From NCBI GenBank assembly GCA_903813345.2, contig CAIIXF020000011.1, forward strand, positions 34,216,166 through 34,280,165: DNA of 64,000 nt, in the 5' to 3' direction. The position numbers and the translations under genes are program-made. This DNA is from Owenia fusiformis (taxonomy: Eukaryota > Annelida > Polychaeta > Sabellida > Oweniidae). Shown piece after piece: positions 26,284 through 32,200 of this stretch (position 1 is its first letter; every line of letters starts with the position of its first letter). Below the pieces are notes generated by a model that saw only the letters and a list, made by a program, of their open reading frames with translations, searched no databases and was not told the origin of the DNA.

Positions 26284-29200
26284 ATGGCATCCGTTTGCAA
26301 ACGTCTTGTTTCTGTGGGCACTTTCGGTCGAAATATACGCTTACATAGTCGTATATTCTCCACTTCACCAACAGCAAATGCTGGTGAAGACTCTTCGGAT
26401 CCTAAAAAGCAGGCGAAAGAACAAATCTACCATGTACGGGAGCGAGGATACCAGCTTCTTCGAGACCCAAGAATTAACAAGGTGAATTCAAAGTCAAGTT
26501 CCCTGGAAACTGGAATATTTAGACATCTGTTTCTTATGTTTCATATTTCCCCTAGAATACACTTATTTTGTGAACTTGAGGACATTGATTTTATGTACTC
26601 AATCTCAAACGCATTTGAATAAGCTTAGAAGAGATAATATATCCATACCTCAGTGTTCTCATGTTCTAGGCTAGCACAGAGTTGTAATGTCAAAAGAAAA
26701 GGCTTTGTTACTTTGTATAAAAAACCTCCTACATACCCACCTACCCACCGACGTGGGGCATGATACAGTCACTGAAGGGTTCAATTTTAAAGATTTTTAA
26801 ATCTCAAAATAGCTCTAATTATTAACATTTCTACAATTCCGGCTTTAGTTTATGACAAGACGGATGACATATCCATAAATAAAGGCATATGGGTGCATTG
26901 TAATGTGTAATGACCAGAGGGCACCCCAGGGGAATAACTAACTAATGACCGCGAGTTTAGGTCCAACCAGCAAGATAAAGAAGTTAAAAAAGTCTGCTAA
27001 ATTCGATGCCCCGAGTGGGAATCAAACCCAGCTGGGCTGTAGTAGCAACTTGCTATCAAGGGTCGTTACAAATGCATCTATAATTCATCATAAACTAAGA
27101 TTTAATAAACTAAGATCTTTAAAATTGAACCCTTCAAAGACTGTATCATGTCCAACGTATGTGGGTAGGTGGGTATGAGGTAGGAGGTTTTTGCTTGCAT
27201 ATTTGCTTATCATGTAAGAATAGGTGGATATTTTAGCTTGAAACTTAGCATGCATATAAAGAACAAATTCTTTTTGCCAACCTGTATACCTTGCATACGA
27301 ACTGGATGAGAAATATGCCATTCGCAAAGTTATGAAAGGGTCTGACGTGCTATTAAAGTTACGAACGAAAGCAAACGTGACGTCATTTTTTCGTAACTTT
27401 GCGAATCGTTCGTAACTTTGCGAAATTTCTGTTAATGACCCCCAAAATTCCACTATTGTTAAAGAGATCAGGTCTCCTAAAAACACAATAAGAGTAACCC
27501 CCTGATTTTTCCGTGTTATTTGATGTAAAACAAGTTTGTTTATCAACTTATCAATTCTGAGGCTTGAATTAATTCGTTAACAGTATCAATTCGATGATTG
27601 TTCCTTGCCATGAATTTCCACTGAAATCAATAGAAATTTAAATTTAAAAAGCCCGCTCAAATTTTTTCCATTCTGATTGGCTTTTTCCTTCAGATTATTT
27701 TGGCTTAGAGAAGCCATATTTATTACTTCTAAGGGTTTACAATATAGATAAATCTCCCCAAAACATTGTATTCTGTTTTCGACTTATTGCGTTCAATTCT
27801 GACAGTTGGTTGTTCTTTTGGTTGTCCTGTTGATATCCTCAATATATTGTCGATATCGTGCTTATGATTTGGTCTCAAGATATATCTAAGGTATATATGA
27901 TGTTTTATGAGCAATTATATTGGGACATTACTGATTGTCCAGAATAGAAATCTGGACGTCTTGATCTCTTTAATATCTTTGATGTTTTATGATTTTCATG
28001 TTCTTTTTTATGATAGGAACTCTGATGGATAATAATGAAAAAATGGTTAAAAATATTTTTTCTGGCTTCCAAACACCTTCAAGTTCACCAATCATGGGCA
28101 TAGCGCTACTTTTGTGAGTAGTACGCCGCCATGGGAATACAAGTTCAGCGAAGCGGAAAACGAGCATTCAGGGGTTTGGGTTTCTACCCCCTAGATAATT
28201 TTGAAGTTTGGTTGTATTTGGAGTGTATTTGCAACCATCTGGTACACCTGTATGTGCTGGGCGCTACGCCTATACCAATGATTCTATTTTCCAATATATG
28301 CATCAATGTTCCGTCAAAAACCACTTTTTTACCGATCTTTATTTTGATAAATCGGAAGTAAACTTTTTCATTTTTAGAACCAGAGAAGTCATAATGATTA
28401 ATGAAAGATTGTAAAGACGCATATTAAATTAATAGAATCCAATGTTAGTTTATTGACAATGCATGTTAGAGAATGCACCTCCAGATCTATTATTAGAGAT
28501 TTTATCAGATTTTTTAAACTTTTTTTGTTTAGCCTTATATCTGCTTAAGGTGCCCTGCTTAAATGTGGTATGTTTATTTGTTTTTGTTGTAGAATCGTAA
28601 AATAGGTGAGTACATAAGTATGTATTGGTCTTTCAGATTCAGTCCTGGGGGAGGAGGGGTGGGGGTTGTGTTGGATCCAGTATCCCATTTGATTGTAAAG
28701 TATAAGTGCCAGAGCTTATACAATTTTTTATTGTATAAGTGTGAGCTTATACAATAACATGTAGATGTAGATATGCATGATTATATTTGATTTTAGGAAA
28801 TGGCATTTACACTGAAAGAACGCCAGCATCTAGGAATTCATGGTCTATTACCACCAGCTCTGTTAGATCCTGACACACAAGTTTTGAGGATGATGAAGAA
28901 CTTCTATAATCAGCCAAATGACCTAGATAGATATGTCCTTTTATGCGTCCTTCAAGACAGAAACGAGAAACTATTCTATAGAATTGTCTCGGAGAATGTT
29001 GAACTCATGATGCCTATTATATATACACCAACAGTCGGTCTTGCCTGCCAGAAATATGGCTTGGTGCAGCGATGCCCAAAGTAAGTGAAAGTTGTTAAGC
29101 AAGCTTTTTTGATTTTCAGGGTATGTCATTTTCTTTGAAAGAACGCCAGCACTTAGGAATCCATGGCCTTTTACCCCCTGCCCTACTGGACCAAGATGCC

Positions 29201-32200
29201 CAAGTAATAAGGGTTATGGAAAACTTCCACAAAAAGGAAACAGACTTGGAAAAGTATATCTTACTTTGTGGATTACAAGACAGAAATGAGAAGCTATTCT
29301 ACAGGGTATTATCTGAGAATGTTGAGATGATGATGCCCATTGTGTACACTCCCACTGTTGGGCAAGCATGTCAGCTTTATGGTATGGCCTTCAGGAAGCC
29401 TAAGTAAGTTAACCTTGTTTGCTTTGCCTGTGCTTACTCCCATGTAAGTGTGTTTTCTTGTGCTTATACAATCTAACATTATACTAGTTATTTAATGATC
29501 ATGGATACAACTATTTTCAACTCATTTTTCAAAATATGGGTGGAAAGTTGACCAGCTATCATCAAGTTCAATGACAATACACATAAATTTCCAAACTGTG
29601 ATCATAAAATGACATTCTTATCACTTTTGAAAGATGTATTGATTTGATATGAACTTTAAAGCATTTTTATTTTCGCAAGAACAGGTTTATTAACATGTAT
29701 ATGTTCATAAGGATACTTCATTATTATTAGAATACAATGTAAGGGTAATTACAAACAAGTATAATAATTTCTTGTAAAATACATCTTTTACTGTTTACAC
29801 CCAACCTTTCTTAGCACTCCTTTGGTATCATAATAGAGGGGGTTTATTGAAGAACACCATTGTGATAGTCATCCTTCTGATTTACTAACTGCACATCGGA
29901 TTCAAGGCAACACAAACCAAATACTTACTGGAAATTCAATCTGTATCATAAGAGTAGAAGCATATTAGGTAGTATTGATCAGATTTCATTTCCATACTGT
30001 AGCACTCGTTGAACTGAATTAGTTATATCTGCTCAGGGATACAGTTAACCTTTTACTAAGTGGTAAATCTTATGCATCTTGCAGAGAATTTACAATAGGA
30101 TTAACCTAAATCTGACCTGGGATGCCCTTGTAATTTGTATCCAGTATGTACTGTAGAGTAAAAGCTATCAAATAATGAACATAAACACATTATTGGCAAA
30201 TTCAAGGCTATTTTCAATTGTTCTCCTGTCAGCTTACCCAGATATGTCTACAGTAATGGAAGCAATCTCAAAGTATTTTCAGTTTATAATATGTGTTTCA
30301 TTTCTTTCTTCTGTAGATTCTCGATTCTGGTGAGAATTCTAAATGCTCTGTTAGTCCCCAATTATTTTTTGTCAATCAATCAATGAAATGAAGTGGGTTG
30401 AACAAACATTGCTAGAGAACAAATTGCAAATGAAAGATATAATTTCTCAGTTTCATCTTTCAAGATTTTAGGGAAACTGAATCAAATGGTGCCCTTAGTT
30501 GTAAGAATTAGAGAAATACTTATTTACACTTCATAAGGGTATAAATACTCTGTTATATGCCATTGAAAGGTTTTACTGTATCCTGAAAGTGGATTCCATG
30601 TATTATATAACTGCTTAAATACATAGTAGATGTAGAATTAAACTAAGAATATTCTGCACGATTAAGGATAGCCACTGTATAGCACCTAGTTTTTTGCACA
30701 TTTCACTATCTTCTAATAACTTTCACCTTGGTCCATATTTACACCAAACATATTTTTCTAGAATTAGAGAAGACATATAAATATAATTGATGTTTATCTT
30801 GTTAAAGGGGCTTGGTCATTTTTGGCCAATCAAACTACTCGAAAATGAACACACCTTTGTCCCAGAAAAAATGTATGATACAAAAAAGGTTTGTCCATAC
30901 TAGAAGATGAGTTTTTGTAATGTAGTATGTATATTTGCATTTGAATATTGTCAAAAATTCTATAGCAATCAGCAGGTATGTTAAGAATATCATATCAGCC
31001 CTAAACTCTTATGAGTACTTGAAAGTTTTATCAAAGTCAAATTGACACAAGAAATAACATAACATTTATCTTATATAGGGCTATATATGTGTGCTCTTGA
31101 ATGATAAGAAGTACACTTATAAATTATGTGTTAATTTTGATTAATTTGCATGTCTACATATAGTTTTTTAAGGTGATCAGGATGTGAACAGAAAAAATGA
31201 AAAATATTCAAGACTGAAAAGTTCAAACTCTTTTTTAAAATTTTAAAGCTCATTTGTTTAGGGGGTGTATAAAAGTGACGTTCAGAGTAATTTTTAAAAA
31301 ATTGTCCAGGGACTTCTCCCACAGTATTGTTTTTCTCCATTTTTCTGCTGTATTTTGTGAGATAAAGTCATCCTAAAAGACAAATTTTGATGTCAAAATA
31401 TACAGGGTGGTCCAAAAAATGGGACACTCGTATTTCAAAATAAATATTAATTTTATCTATGAAAATATGTCATATTGTATATCAATAGATAGGGAATTTA
31501 CTTATCTTTAATTTGATATATCATTTAGGTCAAATTTATGATAATGTCTGTAAACCAGCGTCCATAATGTAAATGGTGTCATTTTCGTTTCAAAACAGGT
31601 TCTACAAAACTTGCAAAAAACAAATTTTATATTGTCAACTTTATTTACATAAACAGACATTCAAGATATCAACCACTTTGATCAATTTTAGCCCTCAATT
31701 TTGGCCTAAACTGGTCACTTTTTATTCAGTGATATTAGGCATATAATGTTATATTTTTGATTGTTTTCAAAAGAAAGGGATAGCTTAGATGTCATATATG
31801 TGCATGTATGTAAAGATACAGGGTATTCACAAAATATTGGCTTATCAGAATGCTTGAAATTTCTCCATTCTTAAATAAGACTCGATTCTATTGTCAGTAT
31901 ATCTGTATTAAATGAAATAAAGATAGACCAAGCAGCTGACTTAGCTTCTCATAGAATTGTGCTAAAGAATTATATTTCATGTTTTTCAGAGGTCTTTTCA
32001 TAACAGTGCATGATGCTGGTCACATATATGAAATACTTTGCAACTGGCCTGAACCCAAGATTAAGGTAAACCCTTTTAAAGTTAAGGTTACTTCAGTTAT
32101 TTAATTGAAAGTAATATTATTCAAAATATTTAAATATGGCAAAGTTGTTTATATGAGAGGTTCTACAATATTTGATGAATAAAAAAATTCAATAAAATCC

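Follow-up and report, generated by a model that had tools for sequence, protein, structure and literature searches.

Two candidate clusters of mutually exclusive exons in a mitochondrial-type malic enzyme gene of the annelid Owenia fusiformis

Mutually exclusive exons have been described in mitochondrial enzymes that offer close comparisons for the gene treated here, a malic enzyme gene lying in a stretch of 64,000 nucleotides (nt) of the annelid Owenia fusiformis (GenBank assembly GCA_903813345.2, contig CAIIXF020000011.1, positions 34,216,166 to 34,280,165 of the forward strand), hereafter called the window. In OGDH, the vertebrate mitochondrial 2-oxoglutarate dehydrogenase, exons 4a and 4b are likewise duplicated and mutually exclusive; according to the accessible sections of PMC7969005, their choice is set by branch points located 25-41 nt (human) from the 5' splice site of the first exon, and the intervening intron measures 118-131 nt in birds and mammals, as opposed to 39 nt in the malic enzyme gene. 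OGDH has one cluster, which concerns Ca2+ sensing, whereas the malic enzyme gene would have two, with an effect predicted from sequence alone. Exons 6a and 6e of coq-2 are also mutually exclusive and remodel the core of a mitochondrial enzyme, although a different one, and there C. elegans RNA data and exon deletions show that the exons decide between ubiquinone and rhodoquinone (excerpts of PMC7434440), while the malic enzyme pairs are known from sequence. A coq-2-type pair is present in the Owenia genome too, with exons of 131 and 134 nt that both leave a remainder of two when divided by three. Mutually exclusive splicing through an unusual branch point location is further indicated for alpha-tropomyosin, an unrelated protein with other spacing, by a title cited in PMC7969005.

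The vertebrate malic enzymes ME1, ME2 and ME3 and the Ascaris malic enzyme are homologous to the product of the window gene along the protein, with the same metal ligands and the same Tyr112 and Asn421 positions. Vertebrates use separate genes for malic enzyme forms, whereas the window gene appears to give several forms by exon choice. The initial annotation knew of no malic enzyme with duplicated exons, and none came up among the titles and abstract openings of the open-access literature, a result that speaks only weakly for their absence. Metabolic enzymes with mutually exclusive exons are a known kind of arrangement; the variant read here has two clusters, one of them with an unusually short gap.

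The locus is read, with a probability of about 0.86, as a mitochondrial-type malic enzyme gene with two clusters of mutually exclusive exons, named here 2A/2B and 11A/11B, and a single gene would thus probably make four enzyme forms. It lies on the plus strand, with coding exons spanning positions 26284-42705 (Table 1) in a model built from splice sites and frames and checked by comparison with solved malic enzymes; residue numbers are those of ME2, obtained through alignment to 1efk. Homology extends along the protein, the metal ligands and the Tyr112 and Asn421 positions are present, and the Pfam models malic (PF00390) and Malic_M (PF03949) match exon by exon above their cut-offs. The metal ligands Glu255, Asp256 and Asp279 (numbering from the same alignment) are found in the motifs QFED and NDD of constant exon 6. 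The Arg/Ser-rich composition of the N-terminus makes it appear mitochondrial-type and targeting-like, and a targeting role is predicted. At both sites there are neighbouring exons of like length and phase, exactly one of which leads to an intact protein, with a stop resulting from the inclusion of two or none. AG/GT splice sites flank both copies of each pair, and 4/4 combinations of one exon 2 with one exon 11 give an open frame, each of 603 amino acids.

The duplication of exon 2 had already been pointed out in the initial annotation, and re-checking of coordinates and frames bore out the lengths (284 nt each), the identical phases, the splice sites and a gap of exactly 39 nt with the ends that had been described. 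The peptide likeness, put there at about 70%, was computed as 71.6%, with 67.0% identity at the nucleotide level. The two frame-breaking products came out as foreseen, since joining 2A to 2B yields VCHFL and then TGA at the sixth codon, while skipping of both copies yields RSFHNSA followed by TGA in exon 3. That account stands for exon 2 but was incomplete, because it missed a second homologous pair in the same gene, formed by exons 11A and 11B (143 nt each, same phases, 2,611 nt apart, 68.8% peptide identity). Inclusion of both 11A and 11B leads to a stop after VPLQ, and skipping of both to a stop shortly past the joint with exon 12. A repeat finder independently picked up 60 nt of this pair as a repeat with 70% identity, the Malic_M model matches 11A and 11B at identical model positions, and both exons share the 3' splice-site end ACCACCAG, which is missing from the paralogue described below. 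Other than a weak match at 21298-21408, no further exon copies were found in the window by tblastn (E up to 5) with two isoforms and the paralogue. This match resembles a stretch of exon 3 (tblastn E 0.014) and, with an in-frame stop inside, was taken as chance or as a remnant.

The choice would be enforced by spacing and frame at exon 2 and by frame at exon 11. In the proposed mechanism, exon 2 selection would proceed by competition, with factors at one site blocking the other, since the short distance between the 2A 5' splice site and the 2B branch site would prevent simultaneous use. The steric limit for assembly on both splice sites is placed at ~50 nt in the available part of PMC7969005, and the adenines of the 39-nt gap, that of the terminal AG excepted, all lie at most 32 nt from the 2A 5' splice site, in line with the earlier view that the gap is probably too short for normal splicing, although the branch adenine may instead sit in 2A. 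Both features recur in human mutually exclusive clusters, for which the text consulted from PMC5740500 gives a donor-to-branch distance below 50 in 57/629 and frame-breaking lengths in 377/629. Selection at exon 11 would require regulation together with removal of out-of-frame RNA, since the separation of 11A and 11B provides no spacing barrier. The parts of the claimed one-or-the-other choice that can be tested on sequence are in agreement with it, with the proviso that frame acts on the product and not on splicing. A TGCATG motif, of the RBFOX type, occurs at position 28774, ~20 nt upstream of exon 2A; it could be there by chance, because 28 such sites are scattered over the 64 kilobases, 12 of them in the gene.

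It is very likely that both copies of each pair are in use. Third-position identity is 40% for 2A/2B and 35% for 11A/11B, against 80-81% at first and second positions, and the non-synonymous divergence (dN) amounts to 0.21 and 0.25, respectively, with a synonymous divergence too saturated to compute. In neutral simulations, where the observed number of changes was placed at random into 2A or 11A (4,000 runs per pair), the frame stayed open in 38/4,000 runs for 2A and 620/4,000 for 11A, and the observed peptide identity with an open frame was reached in 0/4,000 for each pair. Given third positions near saturation, conserved peptides and the absence of a matching simulation, all four exons are judged to be under purifying selection and both duplications to be old. 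Eight residues are common to 2A and 2B and unseen in the paralogue, pigeon ME1 or ME3, which suggests that the exon 2 duplication arose within the lineage of the window gene, the trees being weak. Several points weigh against the reading of two mutually exclusive clusters: the steric argument would fail if the branch point lay within exon 2A, one member of a pair might be silent or only rarely used, and in the weak exon trees 11A and 11B group with 69/74 support while 2A, 2B and the paralogue form a fork without resolution.

The search for malic enzyme exon pairs was carried out within this one animal genome. Two malic Pfam models run against it (498 megabases (Mb), 525 contigs; genes in gaps or in stretches outside the searchable sequence can escape) retrieved only one other malic enzyme gene, on contig C10, whose 580-residue product has a start that, read by eye, is not targeting-like. 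Its exon 2 also measures 284 nt, divided by an extra intron into 185 and 99, and its exon 11 measures 143 nt. No duplicates of exon 2 or exon 11 were found in this paralogue, where each is single copy, and the exon pairs are therefore confined to the mitochondrial-type gene. The paralogue exon 2 (1857-2041 of its locus, L008) carries Asn at the position of the fumarate-binding Arg67 and keeps Glu59. Pfam models for COX1, mollusc-type haemocyanin and hemerythrin had no matches in this genome, negatives that carry no weight; the haemocyanin model was without a match in the control genomes as well.

Exon 2 corresponds to ME2 residues 37-131, that is, to almost the whole of domain A (23-130), a domain that contributes to tetramerization as well as to catalysis and lies next to the fumarate site at the dimer interface (PMC10202922, in its accessible passages). 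Exon 11 corresponds to residues 391-438, 48 residues of the nucleotide-binding domain with Asn421 among them. Because the swaps would replace nearly all of domain A and the Asn421-bearing stretch, the isoforms are expected to differ in allosteric control and kinetics, and not in being functional. Both 2A and 2B retain Gln64, Arg67, Arg91, Asn92, Tyr112 and Arg128, and both 11A and 11B retain Asn421; Tyr112 and Asn421 are taken here to be catalytic residues. The same passages of PMC10202922 assign Gln64, Arg67, Arg91, Asn92 and Arg128 to the fumarate site, and report the proposal that Asp37 of human ME1 hinders ligands of the allosteric site, where ME2 has Gly. At this residue 2A has Glu and 2B Gly; the copies also differ at residue 73 (Tyr in 2A, His in 2B) and, near Tyr112, at residue 118 (Leu and Gln), and the exon 11 copies at residues 397 (Asn in 11A, Gly in 11B) and 425 (His and Lys). 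Residues 57, 59 and 73 matter for fumarate activation of human ME2, as stated in the part of PMC4049574 consulted. Of the features sought for a fumarate-activated enzyme of the ME2 type, namely Arg67 and Arg91 plus a Lys57/Glu59/Lys73/Asp102 network, Arg67 and Arg91 are present in both copies of exon 2; positions 57, 59 and 102 are Ala, Leu and Glu in both, and Tyr or His occupies position 73. Should both copies be in use, a single gene would supply two allosteric/dimer domains and two nucleotide-binding stretches, and the metabolic enzymes that are tuned through mutually exclusive splicing would then include a central-carbon enzyme with two such clusters.

As to what the choice would serve, it could be tissue- or stage-specific (for example, muscle versus other tissues, or larva versus adult) and independent of oxygen, like that of vertebrate OGDH 4a/4b, a possibility to be taken seriously even if it falls somewhat short of even odds. 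As a mitochondrial dehydrogenase, OGDH is a near parallel; according to the accessible text of PMC7969005, its isoform 4b is prominent in striated muscle. Moreover, a myosin-head gene on the minus strand of another contig (C9:37986009-37994334) contains one segment repeated in tandem at least 12 times (Pfam model positions ~18-84; 65 of the 210 candidates scored), so that the lineage uses exon arrays elsewhere too. The gene with this array is presumed to be of the muscle type.

One arm of malate dismutation in animals that make rhodoquinone is formed by malic enzyme, and the swaps could alternatively belong to an aerobic/anaerobic switch in which a rhodoquinone maker, in parallel to its COQ2 exon choice, would use particular isoforms for malate dismutation in low oxygen. 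This is a tentative view, and on balance an unlikely one. A COQ2-type gene was located at C2:21.738-21.742 Mb (locus L010), its type resting on partial NCBIfam matches below the whole-protein cut-off. Its two exon 6 copies, at 4590-4720 (131 nt, Leu/Ser) and 8220-8353 (134 nt, Phe/Ala) of the locus, both align with positions 142-184 of the 4-hydroxybenzoate polyprenyltransferase model, and Phe/Ala versus Leu/Ser is the a/e signature; the Phe and Ala of the 134-nt exon are 39 residues apart, and the C. elegans numbering was carried over by that spacing. In the excerpts of Tan et al. (PMC7434440), the a/e exon pair of COQ2 is reported only in rhodoquinone makers, namely helminths, annelids and molluscs. 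The presence of this rhodoquinone-type pair in the genome indicates that the animal probably makes rhodoquinone and survives for a time without oxygen. In line with a switch, an exon pair is also found in a branched-chain-ketoacid dehydrogenase E1-alpha-like gene (locus L012, C8:20.570-20.572 Mb), where two homologous exons (2808-2969 and 4467-4628, 162 nt each) have 37/54 identical residues and a neighbouring exon has the branched-chain-ketoacid dehydrogenase alpha subunit as its best match; frame alone would not enforce the choice there, because 162 is divisible by three. The difference between 2A (Glu) and 2B (Gly) at residue 37, the position of the Asp37 of ME1 that is proposed to hinder allosteric-site ligands and of the Gly of ME2 (PMC10202922, same passages), points in this direction as well. 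The state of residues 57, 59, 73 and 102, given above, speaks against the switch, as does the finding, in the portion of PMC8659336 consulted, that RNA interference against men-1 of C. elegans left rhodoquinone-dependent metabolism unimpaired, to which its authors add caveats.

More doubtful still is a coordinated splicing programme in which malic enzyme (at two places), COQ2 and the branched-chain-ketoacid dehydrogenase E1-like enzyme would be swapped between an aerobic and a rhodoquinone-based mode, with the choices at exons 2 and 11 coupled. Against this wider reading, no exon pair was seen by eye in the PEPCK loci (2 genes, 9 matches), the PF00206 lyase loci (2 loci, 9 matches) or the PF00890 loci (12 matches, 15 of the 40 candidates scored), fumarase and SDHA not having been singled out among the latter two families; these negatives also count against the simpler switch. 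In a chaperonin control family (60 matches), no clear exon pair was seen by eye, with one 34-residue overlap at C1:44.278 Mb. COQ2 was picked on literature grounds and the sample of enzymes is small, so that a rate of exon pairs is not claimable. The wider reading is weakened further by the plant case, in which an NADP-malic enzyme is among the differentially spliced genes of a study where all events were skipped or mutually exclusive exons; on this enzyme, the passages of PMC10816081 state neither the event type nor duplicated exons. The malic enzyme and COQ2 pairs together make it possible to ask, in a form open to testing, whether animals capable of facultative anaerobiosis adjust several of their mitochondrial enzymes through splicing; exon choice in malic enzyme may help mitochondria to change their working mode, an anaerobic role being hypothetical.

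A quite different and improbable explanation takes the 39-nt gap as a true ultra-short intron, the mRNA containing both 2A and 2B being a deliberate off-switch through nonsense-mediated decay. The gap does begin with GT and end with AG, its 3' splice site includes a run of 7 pyrimidines, and the joined product stops early. The remaining introns of both malic enzyme genes (n = 23), on the other hand, each measure at least 146 nt, and 36 estimates for myosin and PEPCK introns (from 57 of the 101 exon matches) are of ~126 nt or more, with a smallest raw gap of 94, so that no measured or estimated intron falls under ~94 nt. The 39-nt gap is an outlier among the introns measured or estimated in this genome. 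Because the other introns are much longer and the adenines of the gap lie within 32 nt of the donor, splicing of 2A to 2B is regarded as very unlikely, unless the branch point is located within 2A. Marginally less probable again is that each pair includes a duplicate which is decaying or goes unused, for although both exon 2 copies have drifted (of the 13 sites at which they differ and the three outside sequences are unanimous, 8 show a departure in 2A and 7 in 2B), these departures are split about evenly between them, and open frames, AG/GT sites and equal lengths have persisted in the pairs despite saturated third positions, an outcome matched by 0/4,000 neutral runs per pair.

Table 1. Predicted coding exons of the malic enzyme gene and the gap between exons 2A and 2B (positions in the window)
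Feature	Positions	Strand	Remarks
Coding exon 1	26284-26481	+	Start codon; Arg/Ser-rich, targeting-like N-terminus (...RIFSTS)
Exon 2A	28797-29080	+	284 nt; ME2-equivalent residues 37-131; Glu37, Leu118
2A-2B gap	29081-29119	+	39 nt, gtaagt...ttttcag; shorter than the steric limit cited from PMC7969005
Exon 2B	29120-29403	+	284 nt; putative alternative to 2A; Gly37, Gln118
Constant exon 3	31990-32065	+	
Constant exon 4	32340-32501	+	
Constant exon 5	32741-32844	+	
Constant exon 6	33344-33453	+	Metal ligands equivalent to Glu255, Asp256, Asp279 (residue roles: PMC10202922, accessible passages)
Constant exon 7	33839-33936	+	GAGEA stretch, nucleotide-binding fold
Constant exon 8	34262-34375	+	VDSRGL
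Constant exon 10	35542-35653	+	Number 9 reserved for an unproven 30-nt microexon, 34888-34917
Exon 11A	37053-37195	+	143 nt; ME2-equivalent residues 391-438; Asn397, His425
Exon 11B	39807-39949	+	143 nt; putative alternative to 11A; Gly397, Lys425
Constant exon 12	42030-42200	+	PGQGNN motif
Constant exon 13 and stop codon	42466-42705	+	

The candidate microexon between exons 8 and 10 is in frame and has AG/GT ends; it was left out of the model because its length is too short to tell it from chance. Directly upstream of the malic enzyme gene, identical direct repeats of 271 nt and 145 nt are found at 24000-24413 and 25338-26023, perhaps reflecting a recent duplication or a mobile element.

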